Of a DNA stretch of 64,000 bases, positions 4,911 through 21,864 are shown piece after piece. The position numbers were made by a program, and so were the translations under genes. The DNA comes from Streptomyces sp. DG1A-41. GTDB taxonomy: Bacteria > Actinomycetota > Actinomycetes > Streptomycetales > Streptomycetaceae. Under the pieces are notes generated by a model that did not search any database, had not been told where the DNA came from, and saw only the letters and a program-made list of their open reading frames with translations. The stretch spans positions 2,069,001 through 2,133,000 of the forward strand of contig NZ_CP146350.1 in the NCBI RefSeq assembly GCF_037055355.1. Reading direction: 5' to 3'. The number at the start of each line of letters is the position of its first letter. The first letter of the stretch is position 1.

Positions 4911-4933
4911 AGACTAGGGGGAGCCACTGACAA
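4911..4933 (-). promoter_or_regulatory. RecA-independent DNA-damage promoter (PafBC class) of uvrA
   Basis: On the minus strand TTGTCAGTG (4933-4925), 8 nt, then TAGTCT (4916-4911). This matches the actinobacterial RecA-NDp consensus tTGTCRgtg-N8-TAnnnT. Transcription would start near 4904, leaving about 50 nt of leader before the GTG at 4854. Confidence 0.85.
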
Positions 4934-12411: not shown

Positions 12412-13023
12412 CTACGGGTTGATCGCCAGCTTCAGATACGCCGCGAACAGCACCAGATGTAACCCGCCCTGGAGCGGCGTAACCCGGCCCGGTCCCACGG
12501 TCAGCGAGGCCACCACCACGGCCAGGGCGCGCAGCACCGTGTGCGTGGCGCCGAGGCCGAGCACCAGCGGGCCGGACAGCCAGACGGACGCGAGCGCGAC
12601 CGCGGGGATGGTCAGGCCGATGCCGGCCATGGCCGAGCCCAGGGCGAGGTCAAGGCTGGTCTGCACGCGGTCGCCGCGGAGCGCAGCGCGGCGATGGTCT
12701 CCGGGAGCAGCACCAGCAAGCGCGATGATCACCCCGACCGACGGCGTGGTGCAGCCCGGCGGCCTCCGCCCCGGACTCGATGGTGGGTGACACGATGGTG
12801 ACGGCCACGGCGAGGACGAGGGATCCGAACGGTTCGCCGACCCGGTGGGCCATCACCTCGGCGTGGTGCACGGCGGCCAGGACGGCTCCCGCGAGCACCA
12901 GGGTCACCGGCGCGACGACCGCGGCCGGCAGATCGCGCCCCGGGTGAGGATCAGCAGCACGGCCGCGAGCAAGGGCACCAGGGTCGTCCACTGCGCCGTG
13001 AGCGGGCTGCGCCGAGCGATCAC
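12412..13023 (-). pseudogene. Ca2+/H+ antiporter (ChaA/CaCA) remnant
   Basis: About 610 nt survive of a gene normally near 1.1 kb. From GTG 13023 an N-terminus LTAQWTTLVPLLAAVLL shifts frame near 12950 into APVTLVLAGAVLAAVHHAE and VGEPFGSLVLAVAVTI. This then jumps directly to VSPTIESGAEAAGL, with about 170 residues of the middle gone. Further indels near 12740 and 12672 move the frame again before DRVQTSLDLALGSAMAGIGLT and the end AAYLKLAINP at 12412. CaCA antiporters export Ca2+ by proton exchange; this one cannot form the paired alpha repeats needed. The mix of a large deletion and several small shifts looks like true decay. Confidence 0.85.
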
Positions 13024-13041
13024 GCGGTGATCGTCGCAGAC

Positions 13042-13082
13042 GTGAAGGGCCCCCGCACTCCGGTCGTGCGGAGTCCCTTCAC
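13042..13082 (-). terminator. Hairpin after the 13079-13486 gene
   Basis: GTGAAGGG (13042-13049) pairs with CCCTTCAC (13075-13082), with an inner CCGCAC/GTGCGG stem. It overlaps the stop codon of the upstream minus-strand gene and precedes the chaA remnant. Confidence 0.55.
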
Positions 13083-13486
13083 ACGTGCCGCGGGGCTACG
13101 CGCGTACGCGTGCGGCGGGGCTCCACGAACTCGCGCTCGTCCAGGAGGTCGCAGTTGGTGTACACCCGCTCGCCGATGCAGAGCGCGCCCAGTTGCTCCG
13201 CCATCCTGCTGGTCTCGGGGTCGTTGCTGTTGCGCATGGCCTCCTGGTAGGAATCGAACTCGATCAGAGCCAGACAGCGGCGCGGATTGTCTCGGTCCTT
13301 CAGAAGCATGCGCTGCGTGGGGCCGCCCGGCCGGTCGGTGAAGCATCTCCTCGCCTCCTCGAACACACGCTCCATCTCGTCCATGCGCTCGGTCTCGAAG
13401 TCGATGCTCTGTACGAACTTCTTGGCACCTCCGGCCGGCCACGGCGTCCCCGGGCCGGAGGACGCGCTCAAGAACCAAGCAAGCAC
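13079..13486 (-). CDS. Conserved hypothetical protein, start codon probably lost
   Basis: Up to 135 residues. The conserved body runs from KKFVQSIDFETERMDEM through RCLALIEFDSYQEAMRNSND to VYTNCDLLDER, an alpha/beta dimeric-barrel-like pattern seen as a short hypothetical protein in actinomycetes (family from memory). No ATG or GTG stands where the body starts; the DNA reads GGAGGT GCCAAGAAG, so the SD is present but the start codon is missing. The only in-frame start (GTG 13486) lies inside the terC terminator hairpin, so the first 20 residues are probably not natural. It may be silent. No function assigned. Confidence 0.5.
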   Translation of the reverse strand: MLAWFLSASSGPGTPWPAGGAKKFVQSIDFETERMDEMERVFEEARRCFTDRPGGPTQRMLLKDRDNPRRCLALIEFDSYQEAMRNSNDPETSRMAEQLGALCIGERVYTNCDLLDEREFVEPRRTRTRVAPRHV

Positions 13487-13532
13487 CGGGGCCGGTGATC
13501 GGCAATTCGCCGACCACCGGCCCCGGTGCTTG
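13480..13532 (-). terminator. Strong intrinsic terminator downstream of terC
   Basis: A 24-bp stem with one mismatch: 13480-13503 pairs with 13509-13532 across a 5-nt AATTC loop. It lies 22 nt past the terC stop. Confidence 0.85.
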
Positions 13533-13553
13533 TTGCTCCTACGTCCGACGTGG

Positions 13554-14555
13554 TCAGACGTCGACGCTGTCCTTCGGGGCGCCTTCGCCCTGCGCCTGCG
13601 CCGCCTCGGCCGCCGCCTGCTTCTTCGAAGCCCGCAGGCTGGTGATCGTGGTGATGATCAGGACGGAGCAGATCACGCCGAGCGAGACCGGAATGCTGAT
13701 CTCGGGCACGTGCACCCCGGACTCGTGCAGCGCGTGCAGCACCAGCTTCACGCCGATGAAGCCCAGGATGATCGACAGGCCGTAGCTGAGGTGGACCAGC
13801 TTCTTCAGCAGGCCGCCGATGAGGAAGTACAGCTGGCGCAGACCCATCAGCGCGAACGCGTTGGCCGTGAAGACGATGTAGGGGTCCTGCGTCAGGCCGA
13901 AGATCGCGGGGATGGAGTCGAGCGCGAACAGCACGTCCGTCGAGCCGATCGCGAGCATCACGACCAGCATCGGGGTCATGACCCGCTTGCCGTTCTCCTG
14001 GATCCACAGCTTGGTGCCGTGGTAGCGGTCGGCCACACCGAAGCGGCGCTCGGCGGCCTTGAGCAGCTTGTTCTCCTCGAACTCCTCGTCCTGCTCGTCC
14101 GCCCGGGCCTCCTGGATGAGCTTCCAGGCGGTCCAGATCAGGAAAGCGCCGAAGAGGTAGAAGACCCAGGAGAAGCTGGCGAGGATCGCCGCGCCCGCGG
14201 CGATGAAGATGGCCCGCAGGACCAGGGCTATGAGGACACCGATCAGAAGTACGCGCTGCTGGTACTGCGAGGGCACCGCGAACTTCGCCATGATCAGGAC
14301 GAAGACGAAGAGATTGTCGACGCTCAGCGACTTCTCGGTGATGAAGCCCGCGAAGAACTCGCCGGCGGGCTGGCCGCCGCCGAAGATGAGGAGGCCGAGC
14401 CCGAAGAGCGCGGCCAGAACGATCCAGACGACCGTCCAGATCCCGGCTTCCTTGATCGACACGTCGTGCGGCTTGCGGCCGATGAAGAAGTCGACCGCGA
14501 TCAGGGCTGCGAGCCCCACGATCGTCAGGACCCATAGGGTCACGGAAACATCCAC
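13554..14555 (-). CDS. TerC family integral membrane protein (Alx/MeeF-like)
   Basis: 333 residues with about nine TM helices. The family motifs are clear: TEKSLSVDNLFVFVLIM in the first half and MLAIGSTDVLFALDSIPAIFG in the second, each with the paired Asp residues lining the transport path. TerC proteins of this type export Mn2+ or load exported metalloproteins, and are linked to tellurite and metal stress. The start is GTG 14555 behind GGAGG; longer upstream frames run through the leader RNA. The leader carries a probable yybP-ykoY manganese riboswitch whose 3' strand can pair with this SD. Terminator at 13480-13532. Confidence 0.92.
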   Translation of the reverse strand: MDVSVTLWVLTIVGLAALIAVDFFIGRKPHDVSIKEAGIWTVVWIVLAALFGLGLLIFGGGQPAGEFFAGFITEKSLSVDNLFVFVLIMAKFAVPSQYQQRVLLIGVLIALVLRAIFIAAGAAILASFSWVFYLFGAFLIWTAWKLIQEARADEQDEEFEENKLLKAAERRFGVADRYHGTKLWIQENGKRVMTPMLVVMLAIGSTDVLFALDSIPAIFGLTQDPYIVFTANAFALMGLRQLYFLIGGLLKKLVHLSYGLSIILGFIGVKLVLHALHESGVHVPEISIPVSLGVICSVLIITTITSLRASKKQAAAEAAQAQGEGAPKDSVDV

Positions 14556-14698
14556 TGCGCCTCCGGCAGTCGTAACGGCAAATGTCAGCGTCGTCGCTGC
14601 CGGAGGTCTCTTCCACCCAAGGATGGGCCGACGCCCCGGGATCTGGCCTGATCCGTATTGACGGGGACGCCGCAGCAGACAGGGAGTACTCCCCTCCG
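14556..14698 (-). ncRNA. Probable yybP-ykoY (Mn2+) riboswitch with translational switch
   Basis: Leader of terC. Aptamer about 14698-14601: P1 CGGAGG (14698-14693) with CCTCCG (14606-14601), the conserved GGGGAGTA segment after the 5' P1 strand, a GTCAATACG segment, and GAGACC just before the 3' P1 strand. These are the signature elements of the Mn2+-sensing yybP-ykoY class, which often precedes terC. The 3' P1 strand belongs to CCTCCGGCAG (14606-14597), an exact complement of CTGCCGGAGG (14569-14560) that contains the terC SD. Metal-bound P1 would free the SD; without metal the SD is masked. Motif match made by eye, not by covariance model. Confidence 0.65.
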
Positions 14699-14777
14699 TG
14701 CCGATAACAGTACCGCAATCACCAAGAAAAGGTAAAGTACTTGGTAAAAGAGAGGCCAAAACGCCTGGTCAGATGCT

Positions 14778-16793
14778 TTACGCACCCTTGGTGCGGGCGA
14801 CCGCGACCTGGGCGAGCACCTGCTGGAGGACCTGGCTGCCCGGCGGCACGAGCGAGGGCTCGTACGTCCAGGCGTGACCGACCCACGGGTCGGCGAGATG
14901 GTCGTCGGGCACCGGTGTCAGTCGCAGCAGCGAACGCCACAACGGGTCGAGCAAAGGCCCGTATCCGGAGGACTCCTCGCGGTCCGCCACCATCATCAGG
15001 TGGACGCCGAAGGCGGGACCCTCGTCGGCGAGGTAGCGCAACTGGTTCACGGCCCGGTCGTCGAAGCCGTGCGGGAAGTCGTTGACGATCAGCAACTGCT
15101 GTGAGGTGTCGAAGCCGGGCGGGAGGGAGTCGGCGGCCCCTCCCCGCACCGCCATCTGCACCAGGTCGACTTGCTGGATGAGCCGGGTCAGCACGTCCGT
15201 CACGCCTGCGGCGCCGAGCGCGGGCGGGGCCGCGAGCACACCGGTCTGCACGAGGGGTGCGAGCGGTTGCGCGCCCGAGCCGGCCGGGTCGATGACGTGG
15301 ACGGTGAACTCCCCCGCCGGGTAGACGGCGAGCAGCCGTGCCGCGTGCGCGACCGCCGTCTCCAGAGCGAGACGCCCCAGGGTGTGCGAGTCCGCGAAGG
15401 AACCGTCGGACGATCCGGTCCGGCCGCTGTCGATCCACAAACCGCGCTCCAGCGGCAGCCGGACCAGCATCGGAATGCGGATCCGGTCGGCCTCGGGGAG
15501 ATGGAGGTCACCCAGGCGCAGGGCCATGGGGATCTCCATCGGTACCCGGTAGTTGTGCCAGACGGGGCTGTCCCAACGGGCATACGCCGGGGGGAGAGCC
15601 GGTTCGACGACCTCGGCCTCGGCCGTGAGCTGGGCGAGGTCCCGGTCGAGGGCCTGGCTGGCCTGGGCGACGAGCTGGGCGTGCCGGGCACGGGCCGCCT
15701 CGCGGGCGGCGTCGCCCTGTCCGCCGATCCGGCCCCGCGGGTCGGAGAGGACCTGTTCGAGCTCCTTGTCCATGCGGGACTCGGCGAAGTCGACGGCGCT
15801 GCGGTATGCGGCGGTGCTGCGGGCCAGGTCCTCGAACATGCCCCACACCTGGTTGTAGAGCCGCTCGTCCATGGACCAGCCGGTCGCGTCGCCGGCGACG
15901 GGCTGTGCGGACTGTCCGGGTGCGGCCGGGGGTGCGGTGGGCGGCGGGGGCGGAGCGGCGTTCTGGCGGCGCGGGTGGCTGTAGTCGACCGGACCGCCCG
16001 CGGTGGGCGGGGACGGCTGGGTGACAGCGTCGGGTTCCGGCGCCGCGCCGGAATACGACGGCTGCCGCGGCGCGGGCTGCCCCGGCCCGCCGGGCGTGTG
16101 ACCGCCGTACGGCGGCATCGGTGATGCCTGGCCCGGCTGAGGAGCGATACCGCCCTGGTCCGGGCCGAGGGCCGGGGCCGCCGCCTGCCGGGAGCGGTCG
16201 CCGTCCGCCGTGCGCGGCGGGGGCGCCTGCACCGAGCGGGCCACCCCTTGGGCCACCGCGTCGTCGATGCTGTCGGCGAGCTGGTGGGCCTGGGGCAGGC
16301 CCTGGTCGGTGAGGAGTTCGGCGAGGCCGCCCGCGTACCCCTGGCCGACGGCACGCACCTTCCAGGCGCCCTGCCTGCGGTAGAGCTCCAGGGCGACGAC
16401 CGCCGACTCGGCCTCCAGGCCGGTGATGGTGTAGCTGGCGATCTCGGCACCGTCGAGGCCGGTGACGGCGACGAACGGGGCGGCCACGGCGCCGAAGCGG
16501 ACCGGGCTCGCCCCGGCGGCGGGCAGGGCGAGCAGCACGCCGACACGGTGGGCGGCCTCCGGCACGGCGTCCAGATCCACCGCGAGGCGATGGTCGGCGG
16601 CGGCCTGCCGGGAGACCTCGAGCCCCGGCTGGGTGGGCGCGCCCGGGTGGGCGACCCACTCCACGCCGTGGATCCGGCCGCTTTCGTCGCTGAACGCGGC
16701 CGCGGCCACGATCGGCGTGCCGGCCGAGATCCGGATCTCGAGACGGGCCTGGGAGAGCGCGTGGTTCTGCCCCCGCACCAGCTCGGCCGTCAT
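14778..16793 (-). CDS. TerD-domain protein with FtsK-like C-terminal domain
   Basis: 671 residues in three parts. Residues about 1-190 are a TerD (TDP) domain: ELVRGQNHAL, VGVLLALPAAG, IASYTITGLEAESAVVALELYRR, VGQGYAGGLAELL. About 190-330 is a Pro/Gly/Gln-rich linker. The rest resembles a FtsK/EccC-type ATPase fold: RIPMLVRLPLERGLWIDSG, AVYPAGEFTVHVIDPAG, Walker B-like QQLLIVNDFPHGF and FGVHLMMVADREE. The usual Walker A lysine is absent (SGRTGSSDGSF instead), so it may be a non-hydrolysing scaffold. The start is ATG 16793 behind GGGGAGAAGG. It follows the 192-residue TerD gene by 76 nt, likely one operon. Confidence 0.8.
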   Translation of the reverse strand: MTAELVRGQNHALSQARLEIRISAGTPIVAAAAFSDESGRIHGVEWVAHPGAPTQPGLEVSRQAAADHRLAVDLDAVPEAAHRVGVLLALPAAGASPVRFGAVAAPFVAVTGLDGAEIASYTITGLEAESAVVALELYRRQGAWKVRAVGQGYAGGLAELLTDQGLPQAHQLADSIDDAVAQGVARSVQAPPPRTADGDRSRQAAAPALGPDQGGIAPQPGQASPMPPYGGHTPGGPGQPAPRQPSYSGAAPEPDAVTQPSPPTAGGPVDYSHPRRQNAAPPPPPTAPPAAPGQSAQPVAGDATGWSMDERLYNQVWGMFEDLARSTAAYRSAVDFAESRMDKELEQVLSDPRGRIGGQGDAAREAARARHAQLVAQASQALDRDLAQLTAEAEVVEPALPPAYARWDSPVWHNYRVPMEIPMALRLGDLHLPEADRIRIPMLVRLPLERGLWIDSGRTGSSDGSFADSHTLGRLALETAVAHAARLLAVYPAGEFTVHVIDPAGSGAQPLAPLVQTGVLAAPPALGAAGVTDVLTRLIQQVDLVQMAVRGGAADSLPPGFDTSQQLLIVNDFPHGFDDRAVNQLRYLADEGPAFGVHLMMVADREESSGYGPLLDPLWRSLLRLTPVPDDHLADPWVGHAWTYEPSLVPPGSQVLQQVLAQVAVARTKGA

Positions 16794-16869
16794 CGCCTTC
16801 TCCCCCTGTGTCGTTGTGTGGTGTCGTGTGCCGCTCACCGGCCCGCCCCGGCCGGTCGCCCCCGGGGCC

Positions 16870-17448
16870 TCAGAGGACGGGCAGGATCGCCGGCATCAGG
16901 TCCTGGAAGGTACGGCCGTTGGCCGGGTTGCCGAGGGCCGTCATCGTCCAGCCCTGGCCCGAGCGGTGCACCTTGGCCATGATCTGGGCCGTGTACTGGC
17001 CGCCGCCGGCCAGGGTGTAGCGGGCGAGCTCCTGGCCGTTGGTCTCGTCGACCAGGCGGCAGAACGCGTTCTGCACCTCCTGGAACGTCTGGCCCGTGAA
17101 GGAGTTCACGGTGAAGACGATCTGGTCGATGTGGACCGGGACGCGTGACAGGTCGACGAGGATCGCCTCGTCGTCGCCGCCCTGGCCGACACCGCCGACG
17201 AGGTTGTCGCCGGTGTGGCGCACCGAGCCGTCGTCGCTCACCAGGTGGCGGAAGAAGACGACGTCGACCGGCTGCTTGTCGGCGAACAGGACGGCCGAGG
17301 CGTCGAGGTCGACCTCTCGCGTACGCGAGCCGAACAGGCCGCGCCGGGGAGCCGCCTGCCAGCCGAGACCCATGCGCACCGCGGTCAGGCTGCCGCCGTC
17401 GTTCTTCTGCAGACTGATGGCCTGACCCTTGGTCATGTTGACGGTCAC
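16870..17448 (-). CDS. TerD family protein
   Basis: 192 residues, a single TerD domain. It starts (GTG 17448) MTVNMTKGQAISLQKND and includes the Ca2+-binding strands VDLDASAVLF, HTGDNLVGG and GDDEAILVDLSRVP, plus IVFTVNSFTGQTFQEV. TerD proteins bind Ca2+ and take part in tellurite resistance, phage inhibition and general stress response. In Streptomyces homologues affect differentiation and Ca2+ signalling. The upstream region holds a near-perfect DNA-damage promoter motif (17503-17525), so this operon may be induced with uvrA and uvrB, a link I infer. The next gene downstream is a larger TerD fusion. Confidence 0.93.
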   Translation of the reverse strand: MTVNMTKGQAISLQKNDGGSLTAVRMGLGWQAAPRRGLFGSRTREVDLDASAVLFADKQPVDVVFFRHLVSDDGSVRHTGDNLVGGVGQGGDDEAILVDLSRVPVHIDQIVFTVNSFTGQTFQEVQNAFCRLVDETNGQELARYTLAGGGQYTAQIMAKVHRSGQGWTMTALGNPANGRTFQDLMPAILPVL

Positions 17449-17502
17449 GCGCTGATCCCCTCTCGGACGTCCCCTGTTGCCGCGCAGTCGCGGTTGTTCA
17501 GA

Positions 17503-17525
17503 ACCCTACGCAGGTGCACTGACAG
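17503..17525 (-). promoter_or_regulatory. RecA-NDp-like damage promoter upstream of terD operon
   Basis: Minus strand CTGTCAGTG (17525-17517), 8 nt, TAGGGT (17508-17503). One mismatch to the TTGTCAGTG box with exact N8 spacing and a TAnnnT -10. Predicted start near 17496, about 48 nt before GTG 17448. Confidence 0.65.
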
Positions 17526-17586
17526 TGACGTACCCCGGTCCGCGCTTTGTGTCGGTCTTGCAACACTGCGCGTACGCGGTCCGCTG

Positions 17587-19731
17587 TCAGGCCAGGCCCG
17601 CCTCCTTCATCTGGCGCAGTTCCTTCTTCATCTCGGAGACCTCGTCGCGCAGCCGGGCCGCGATCTCGAACTGGAGATCCGCGGCGGCGGCCCGCATGCG
17701 TGCGGTGAGTTCCTCGATCTGCTCGCTGAGTTCGGCCGCGGGGCGGTCGGTCGGCACCGTCTCCTTGGCCTTGCCCCTGCCCTTGGCCGGCTTGGCGCCC
17801 TCGGCGGTCCTGCCAAGGGAGGGCACGGGCGACTTGGTGCCACCGCCGTCCTTCTTCGCCTTGCGGTAGCCCGAGCCCAGCAGCTGCTCGGTGTCGATGT
17901 CCTCGCGGGCGATCTGCGCGACGATGTCGTTGATCTTCTTGCGGAGCGGCTGGGGGTCGATGCCCCGCTCCTTGTTGTACGCGACCTGCTTCTCCCGGCG
18001 CCGGTTGGTCTCGTCGATGGCCTTCGCCATCGCCGGGGTGATCTTGTCGGCGAACATGTGGACCTGGCCGGAGACGTTGCGTGCGGCGCGGCCGATGGTC
18101 TGGATCAGGGAGGTGCCGGAGCGCAGGAAGCCTTCCTTGTCGGCGTCCAGGATCGCCACCAGGGACACCTCGGGCAGGTCGAGGCCCTCCCGCAGGAGGT
18201 TGATGCCGACCAGCACGTCGTACTCGCCGGCGCGCAGCTCACGCAGGAGTTCGACGCGGCGCAGGGTGTCGACGTCGCTGTGCAGATAGCGCACCTGGAT
18301 GCCCAACTCCAGGAAGTAGTCCGTGAGGTCCTCGGCCATCTTCTTGGTGAGCGTGGTGACCAGGACGCGCTCGTCCTTCTCGGTGCGCTGCCGGATCTCG
18401 TGCACCAGGTCGTCGATCTGCCCCTCGGTGGGCTTGACGACGACTTCCGGGTCGACGAGGCCGGTGGGGCGGATGATCTGCTCGACGACTCCGTCCGAGC
18501 GGGAGAGCTCGTAGGCTCCCGGGGTCGCCGACAGGTAGACCGTCTGGCCGATGCGCTCCTGGAACTCCTCCCACTTCAGGGGGCGGTTGTCCAGGGCGGA
18601 GGGCAGCCGGAAGCCGTGGTCGACGAGGGTGCGCTTGCGGGAGGCGTCGCCCTCGTACATGGCGCCGATCTGCGGGACCGTGACGTGCGACTCGTCGATG
18701 ACGAGGAGGAAGTCGTCCGGGAAGTAGTCCAGCAGGGTGTTGGGCGGGGAGCCGGGCAGGCGGCCGTCGAAGTGCATCGAGTAGTTCTCCACGCCGGAGC
18801 AGGAGCCGATCTGGCGGAGCATCTCGATGTCGTACGTCGTGCGCATCCTCAGGCGCTGGGCCTCCAGGAGCTTGCCCTGCTTCTCCAGTTCGGCGAGGCG
18901 CTCGCCCAGCTCCTTCTCGATGTCGTTGACGGCCCGCTCCAGGCGCTCGGGCCCTGCGACGTAGTGGGAGGCCGGGAAGACGTACAGCTGCTGGTCGTCG
19001 CTGATGATCTCGCCGGTGACCGGGTGCAGCGTGGACAGCGCCTCGATCTCGTCGCCGAACATCTCGATGCGGACGGCCAGCTCCTCGTAGACCGGGAAGA
19101 TCTCGATGGTGTCGCCGCGGACGCGGAAGGTGCCGCGGGTGAAAGCCATGTCGTTGCGCGTGTACTGGATGTCCACGAAGCGGCGCAGCAGCTCGTCGCG
19201 GTCGTGTTCCTCGCCGACACGGAGGGGGACCATGCGGTCCACGTACTCCTGCGGCGTACCCAGGCCGTAGATGCAGGAGACCGAGGCGACCACGACGACG
19301 TCGCGGCGGGTGAGCAGCGAGTTGGTCGCGGAGTGGCGAAGGCGCTCGACCTCCTCGTTGATCGAGGAGTCCTTCTCGATGTAGGTGTCCGACTGCGGGA
19401 CGTAGGCCTCGGGCTGGTAGTAGTCGTAGTACGAGACGAAGTACTCGACGGCGTTGTTCGGGAGCAGCTCCCGGAACTCGTTCGCCAGCTGGGCGGCAAG
19501 CGTCTTGTTCGGCGCCATCACGAGCGTGGGGCGCTGGAGCTTCTCGATCATCCACGCGGTGGTGGCGGACTTGCCGGTGCCGGTCGCGCCCAGGAGGACG
19601 ACGTCCTTCTCGCCCGCCTGGATGCGTTGGGCGAGCTCGGCGATGGCCGTCGGCTGGTCGCCGCTCGGCTGGTAGGGGCTGACGACCTCGAAGGGCGCCA
19701 CCGTGCGTTCGATGTGGGAAACGGGCCGCAT
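17587..19731 (-). CDS. uvrB: UvrB, excinuclease ABC subunit B
   Basis: 714 residues. UvrB is the helicase-like damage-verifying subunit of nucleotide excision repair. Visible: [16 protein letters not shown] (Q-motif area), Walker A GATGTGKS (48-55), the [19 protein letters not shown] beta-hairpin that probes damage, [11 protein letters not shown]alker B, helicase motifs V-VI ([29 protein letters not shown]) and the C-terminal UvrC-binding segment [20 protein letters not shown]. The start ATG 19731 is chosen because a damage-type promoter puts the transcript start right at this A; GTG 19761 lies inside that promoter. It is the likely partner of uvrA at 1.8-4.9 kb. Confidence 0.98.
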
Positions 19732-19738
19732 GGGTTCC

Positions 19739-19761
19739 ACCGTACGACCCCGCACTGACAA
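19739..19761 (-). promoter_or_regulatory. RecA-independent DNA-damage promoter of uvrB (leaderless)
   Basis: Minus strand TTGTCAGTG (19761-19753), N8, TACGGT (19744-19739). Predicted transcription start at or next to the ATG at 19731. Confidence 0.85.
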
Positions 19762-19771
19762 CGGGCTCCGA

Positions 19772-20638
19772 TCAGCGGTTCTGCGGTGTCCGGGAGCCGC
19801 GGTGCTCCACGGTGCGGCGGGGGCGGAGCCGCAGGCGCTGCGGGTTGTGGGCGGTGTGGGTGTGGGCGGGGATGCCGGGCCTCTGCTCGACGGGAACGAC
19901 CGCGGGCTTGCCCATGACCATCAGCGGGTCGAACATCACCACGACGCCCGCGAGGAGGAGGAAGGCGAGCGGGCCGATCAGCATGGGGGTGAGCAGGGCC
20001 GCGGGCGACTCTCCCGTTGCGGGCTCGGCCGTGCCGTGCAGGTGGACGCTGAGGGCGGCCATGCCGGTGTAGTGCATGCCGCTGACGGCGAGACCCATGA
20101 CGAGGCTGGCGCCCACGCTCCACAGGAAGCCCCGGACCTGGCCGGCCGCCCACAGGGCGGCGGTGGCGGCGGCCATGGCGATCGCGACGGAGATGCCGAC
20201 GGTGAACGTGTTGTACTCCAGCTTCCCGTCCAGGCGCATGCTGGCCATGCCGAGGTAGTGCATCGACGCGATGCCCAGGCCGGTGATGGTGCCGCCTGTG
20301 AACAGGGCCGTTCCGCGGGCTCCCTTGTAGCCGACGATGAAGATCCCGATGCCCACCATCACGATTGCGACGGCCAGGCTCGCGAAGGTCATCGGCTTGT
20401 CGTAGTGGATCGGGGTCCCGCGGACCGTGAACCCCATCATCGCGATGAAGTGCATGGTCCATATGCCGGAGCCGATGGCGGCCGAGCCGAGGACGAGCCA
20501 GCCGGGGCGCCAGGACTGGGCGACGAGCATGGATCTGGTGGTGCAGCGCAGGCCCAGGGCTCCGCCGAGGCAGGCCATGAGGTAGGCCACCAGAGGTGTG
20601 ACCAGGCCGTAGCTGAATCCGTCGACCGTGCCCTGCAT
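19772..20638 (-). CDS. MHYT-domain integral membrane protein
   Basis: 288 residues, about seven TM helices. Three MHYT-type motifs appear: MHFIAMM, MHYLGMA and MHYTGMA. The family is proposed to bind metal through these Met/His pairs and to sense O2, CO or NO. No signalling output domain (GGDEF, EAL, kinase) is attached; the C-terminus is a short basic tail, so it would act through a partner or as a plain sensor. The start ATG 20638 has GGAGGG upstream; longer frames lack an SD. It shares a 286-nt divergent promoter region with the GDPD gene. Confidence 0.9.
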
Positions 20639-21841: not shown

Positions 21842-21864
21842 TTGTCAGTGGCGGGTCGTACGGT
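21842..21864 (+). promoter_or_regulatory. RecA-independent DNA-damage promoter of ogt (leaderless)
   Basis: TTGTCAGTG (21842-21850), N8, TACGGT (21859-21864), followed after 6 nt by ATG 21871. Exact match to the RecA-NDp pattern. Confidence 0.85.

Follow-up and report, generated by a model that had tools for sequence, protein, structure and literature searches.

A genus-wide putative activator box and a clade-limited PafBC-type core in the promoter of the uvrB-linked terD gene of Streptomyces

Introduction

The -26 core of PafBC-type promoters has the consensus TGTC[AG]GTG. In mycobacteria, PafBC is activated by single-stranded DNA and lets the housekeeping polymerase use promoters that carry this -26 motif, for which RecA-NDp is the older name (PMC11804915; PMC6789036; PMC8223512), the RecA-NDp promoter class being already known (Gamulin 2004, as cited in PMC6789036). 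In S. venezuelae, the M. smegmatis PafBC motif does not seem to be conserved, going by an initial search mentioned in a study of LexA; the main text of that paper contains no mention of terD or uvrB (PMC9380542). In S. coelicolor, SCO6735 has a RecA-NDp-type promoter and shows a 5-fold rise after UV (PMC5087735). Ter stress proteins are described from Deinococcus radiodurans, in which TerB and TerD go up under UVC/vacuum; this organism belongs to another phylum, and the relevant passages make no mention of a PafBC-type element (PMC5731708).

Here we analyse a terD gene in a window (the whole stretch of DNA under study, 64,000 nucleotides) of Streptomyces sp. DG1A-41. Its promoter resembles that of SCO6735 in that a RecA-NDp-type element precedes a gene outside classical repair, but the SCO6735 element is reported upstream of homologues in several other Streptomyces (PMC5087735), whereas the terD element is clade-limited. 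With the RecA-NDp/PafBC -26 promoters of mycobacteria and other actinobacteria, the terD promoter shares the TGTCAGTG core, the eight-base spacer and the TANNNT hexamer, in a host that likewise encodes PafBC and has repair genes among the candidate targets. It is unlike them in that the core is not kept genus-wide, that the start codon (GTG, 17448) lies 54 nt below the -10 hexamer and that a second conserved box stands upstream. We take SCO1965 to be the S. coelicolor counterpart of this terD, since SCO1966 is presumably uvrB. The SCO1965 protein is lowered in an argR mutant (PMC3293853), and it is listed among the tellurium resistance proteins by which S. coelicolor and S. lividans differ (PMC7244524). 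Our literature search found no report of this terD, or of SCO1965, as damage-induced in Streptomyces.

Results

On the minus strand, the cluster runs in the order uvrB, terD, a gene for a 673-aa TerD-domain protein and a gene for a TerC/Alx-type protein (Table 1). The gap between uvrB and terD measures 138 nt here and holds, from 5' to 3', the box TGTTGCAAGACCGACACAAA, the site CTGTCAGTG-N8-TAGGGT, a Shine-Dalgarno-like GAGAGGGGA and the terD GTG. This site had been picked out in the original prediction as a damage-regulon motif with one mismatch and exact spacing, and its coordinates, mismatch and spacing are all correct: it is a canonical RecA-NDp/PafBC-type element, whose sole mismatch falls on the initial T of TTGTCAGTG and whose 8-base core and N8 spacing to TANNNT are exact. 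Allowing up to three mismatches, the terD site sequence has four matches in the window (itself and those starting at 4911, 19739 and 21842), compared with a mean of 0.70 in shuffled sequence, and none of 100 shuffles reached four. The same prediction had described the 673-aa protein as a TerD-FtsK-like fusion. The TerD domain was indeed found, but the FtsK-like part was not confirmed: the C-terminal 370 aa have no Pfam match at E<=5, and a PDB search yielded two chains of TerD type besides a single weak PadR row (E=0.15), although a distantly related fold is conceivable. The C-terminal part (14778-15890) contains many invariant residues among 23 streptomycete sequences, yet matches no Pfam family. 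A role of the cluster in defence was also considered and set aside, PADLOC giving no match for its three proteins.

Table 1. Features of the uvrB-terD region (positions in the window).
Feature	Position	Strand	Remarks
TerC/Alx-type membrane protein	13554 to about 14759	-	PF03741; TIGR03718, 383 bits, cut-off 246.4; start codon uncertain
673-aa protein with N-terminal TerD domain	14778..16799	-	PF02342, 69.9 bits, cut-off 25.3
terD, TerD domain, 192 aa	16870..17448	-	PF02342, 146.3 bits, cut-off 25.3
-10 hexamer TAGGGT	17503..17508	-	with the preceding TGCG (17509-17512) conserved genus-wide
RecA-NDp/PafBC-type site of terD	17503-17525	-	full site CTGTCAGTGCACCTGCGTAGGGT
PafBC-type -26 core TGTCAGTG	17517..17524	-	exact match; clade-limited conservation
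Box, 20 bp, presumed activator site	17546..17565	-	centre about -59.5
uvrB	17587..19731	-	PF12344 and PF17757; directly upstream of terD
RecA-NDp/PafBC-type site of uvrB	19739..19761	-	TTGTCAGTGCGGGGTCGTACGGT; positive control

The pattern TGTCAGTG-N8-TANNNT has 43 exact matches in the 8.99-Mb genome as against one for the reversed pattern, and 61 Streptomyces genomes, that of the window included, hold 8-62 sites each (median 29, total 1977) with 14 reversed hits in all. The genome-wide count rejects a chance match for the site class as a whole. Both pafB and pafC are present, as adjacent genes for an HTH_PafC+WYL+WCX and a WYL+WCX protein below a Pup-ligase gene, in a cluster that also includes an FKBP gene and tatC. 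When the gene below each of the 43 sites was picked by coding bias and 41 of them were scanned with Pfam (all but sites 17 and 26, below which no convincing gene stood), 15 of the 43 sites were found to precede replication or repair genes, namely those for recA, uvrA, uvrB, ogt, a UDG-family glycosylase, an MgsA/RarA ATPase, two UvrD-type helicases, a RecD2-type protein, a RadA-like protein, the DNA polymerase III tau/gamma subunit, a beta-clamp protein, two DEAD-type helicases and a PD-(D/E)XK nuclease. The remainder include MFS transporters, a MurB-type protein, a proton pyrophosphatase, ribosomal protein S6 and several genes without assignment. Together, the pafB-pafC pair, the 43 sites versus one and their position before repair genes make a PafBC-type regulon in this genome well supported. 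For 23 of the 43 sites (site 26 left out), the distance from the -10 down to the start codon is 6-10 nt, which suggests leaderless messages in this set; terD differs. A search for other TerD-domain genes in the genome gave 13 stretches, and by position only the uvrB-linked cluster lies within 7 kb of any of the 43 sites.

Several other members of the site set may be mentioned. Within the window, the sites at 4911-4933 and 21842-21864 stand upstream of uvrA and of the ogt-type methyltransferase gene. At one locus (L033, G000:C1:5785308-5788584), two adjoining genes have a site each, one encoding a beta-clamp-like protein and the other a sigma factor with an NTF2/SnoaL-like domain. RecA-NDp-type sites also precede a SUKH-4 domain gene (L019) and a DUF4253 gene (L029), neither family being known for repair.

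For the comparison across the genus we assembled 121 uvrB-terD loci, made up of 80 named Streptomyces loci that were best hits, another 40 picked from 150 drawn genomes, mostly because their terD identity was low, and the window; near relatives are over-represented. uvrB lies directly upstream of terD on the same strand in 120 of the 121, at a gap of 57 to 619 nt; the stretch of the remaining locus (L288) contains no uvrB and was dropped, leaving 120. The best conserved parts of the terD promoter are the upstream box and the -10. The box consensus TGTTGCAAGANCGACACAAA is present with at most three mismatches in 113 of the 120 loci and with at most five in 116, a TANNNT hexamer follows 36-38 nt below it in all 116 box-bearing loci, and the exact GCGTAGGGT stands at the -10 in 90 of 120. 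On the tree described below, the mean number of changes per position is only 2.6 for the box and 2.2 for the -10, which reads TGCRTAGGGT and is accompanied by no conserved -35. With a transcription start assumed 7 nt below the hexamer, the box is centred near -59.5. This is the usual place of a class I activator, and the terD promoter further resembles class I activator promoters in the fixed spacing to the -10 and in having no conserved -35; the box does not appear to fit the CRP consensus. An order-wide draw found a loose match to the box in 149 of 197 genomes, every one of them in the genus of the window, and in none of 16 genomes of other genera. Neither box nor core is found in nine paralogous terD promoters of the genus. 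Both are also absent from another genus of the family, the only one checked that has a clear terD, where uvrB is again followed by terD. The box is missing in four of the 120 loci (L292, L295, L296 and L303). In two of these, L296 and L303, uvrB and terD are only 57 and 89 nt apart, and no readable uvrB site is weaker than theirs (two mismatches).

Other readings of the box were considered as well. An inverted repeat or RNA hairpin is disfavoured by relatives that alter one arm alone (CGACAC to CGCCAC); the pattern GTGTYG-N6-CRACAC fits the box here and occurs once in the genome, as against nine times per strand for the reversed pattern. A second promoter, with TTGCAA serving as its -35, was rejected because no conservation is seen at the appropriate distance. 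A part of the 3' end of uvrB is ruled out, because the spacing of the box is fixed to the terD -10 whereas the uvrB-terD gap varies, and an operator of many genes is at odds with the single copy in this genome at up to three mismatches.

The -26 core of terD behaves differently from the uvrB site, which served as control. Compared with TTGTCAGTG-N8-TANNNT, 117 of the 120 uvrB sites show no more than one mismatch and 2 show two, the remaining row (L286, five mismatches) coming from a stretch that ends inside uvrB, with the site (G036:C1:2629815) just outside; the terD site has at most one mismatch in 53 of 120 and at most two in 71. A tree was built from the joined coding sequences (119 tips, L286 being absent), and four of the 119 promoters, which have no readable box, were excluded from the rate tests, leaving 115. 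On this tree, mean changes per core position amount to 1.1 for uvrB and 17.4 for terD, compared with 19.8 for the terD lead and 14.8 for four-fold sites, with the limit that parsimony steps saturate at long distance. Genus-wide, the terD core drifts at about the local background rate. A composition-matched comparison of rates gave P=0.18 (115 promoters) and P=0.08 (the 81 promoters made up of the named loci and the window), but this test is weak because only five four-fold sites have A or T as their commonest base.

In the near relatives the picture is less unfavourable. Of the 85 promoters closest to the window, 51 have the exact terD core, whereas 8-mer lead windows clear of the core are kept in 17-26, and this peak of 51 is in register with the PafBC motif. 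8-mer windows below the -10 are kept in 6-59 of the 85; the best kept of these, CAACCGCG (59 of 85), exceeds the PafBC core. The core as a whole is not significantly slower than the whole flanks in this set (P=0.06), nor are its A/T positions (P=0.25), but its G/C positions are (P=0.004). Conservation of the motif in the terD promoters of other streptomycetes, which the original prediction had named as a check, does not extend to the genus: the tolerant core TGTCRGYG is present at terD in 65 of the 85 nearer and only 3 of the 30 farther promoters, versus all 85 and all 30 at the neighbouring uvrB. In the 30 promoters with a diverged lead, at least seven of the eight core bases are kept in 5, each lead window in 0-1, and sampled windows below the -10 keep seven of eight bases in 1-9; in a few distant promoters (L275, L300) the lead is wholly different and the core still present. 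In a separate survey, 70 of 106 near loci had a terD site with no more than one mismatch (the anchor was absent in 4 of 110), and so did 8 of 51 divergent orthologs when the core was allowed an R.

How quickly other sites of this genome change was calibrated in one set of 30 divergent genomes. The tolerant core is kept at terD in 5 of 30 and at uvrB in 28 of 28 readable loci, and also in 24 of 29 loci of the RecB-type nuclease gene, 12 of 28 of a HAD-type hydrolase gene (a second HAD match in G047 was left out of the count) and 3 of 30 of the MurB-type gene; in this genome, each of the latter three genes starts 7 nt below its site. Judged by this turnover, the terD site behaves like the fast-changing, peripheral and clade-limited members of the set rather than like the repair core. 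Fast turnover of a site, taken alone, does not prove that it lacks a function.

Discussion

The explanation that we consider probable on balance, though by no means secure, is a promoter of two layers, in which a genus-wide putative activator box and the -10 are joined in part of the genus by a PafBC core. We read terD as run mainly by a putative box-binding factor, with PafBC as a likely accessory input in some species, so that damage control of terD would be at most an optional extra. In the genus-wide layer, a putative activator at TGTTGCAAGANCGACACAAA would set terD expression from TGCRTAGGGT in most species of the genus. The second layer is the PafBC core, which this species and many of its near relatives add in the -26 region at exact spacing, and by analogy with mycobacteria we infer that single-stranded DNA would activate PafBC, that PafB would bind and read the -26 core while PafC bridges to the housekeeping sigma factor, and that terD transcription from the presumed start would then rise after damage. 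A further-reaching proposal, which we offer only tentatively and which may well prove wrong, is that a dedicated, so-far-undescribed activator at the single-copy box near -60 governs the uvrB-linked terD cluster across most Streptomyces, that PafBC was recruited in part of the genus and that TerD is an accessory DNA-damage effector.

The most serious alternative, though in our estimate a rather unlikely one, holds that the terD core is a non-functional match, arisen by chance or decaying, beside a conserved -10, and that the box factor alone governs terD. This would account for the background-like substitution rate, for the A/T positions that are not slowed and for the loss of the core in most divergent promoters while box and -10 persist. 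However, since the reversed control predicts about one chance hit in this whole genome, a match at exact spacing within a promoter is not readily attributed to chance, the local peak of conservation in near relatives coincides with the register of the motif, and two other sites of the genome are lost at similar rates in divergent relatives.

It is also conceivable, but improbable, that terD responds to damage solely by read-through from the PafBC-controlled uvrB promoter and not by its own core. uvrB is the upstream neighbour in virtually all loci, its site is strongly kept, and a terminator scan of 13000-20000 gave no minus-strand match, which makes such a damage input possible as far as terminators of the T-run type are concerned. 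Yet the scan sees only that type and also returned no minus-strand promoter-like site, so that it is a weak negative, and terD possesses conserved promoter parts of its own behind a gap of very variable length. Finally, core membership of terD in the streptomycete PafBC regulon, as originally suggested, is very improbable despite the exact core and spacing, the presence of pafBC and the neighbouring uvrB and ogt sites, because core members such as uvrB and the RecB-type nuclease gene keep their site genus-wide and terD does not.

With the two-layer promoter as the preferred reading, the assignment of terD to the DNA-damage regulon stands in part. A canonical RecA-NDp/PafBC-type site, a host with pafBC and 42 further exact sites, many of them before DNA-repair genes, speak for it, but conservation upstream of terD orthologs, weak among near relatives, fails at the level of the genus, and the parts that are conserved there are another box and the -10.

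For the genus, the strong RecA-NDp site set in all 61 Streptomyces genomes searched, among which S. venezuelae is not necessarily included, points the other way from what the initial search reported for that species suggested (PMC9380542). If PafBC drives terD in some species, TerD proteins would have a clear inducer and could be placed next to nucleotide excision repair. The box near -60 offers a concrete handle for finding what may be the main regulator of a conserved stress cluster.
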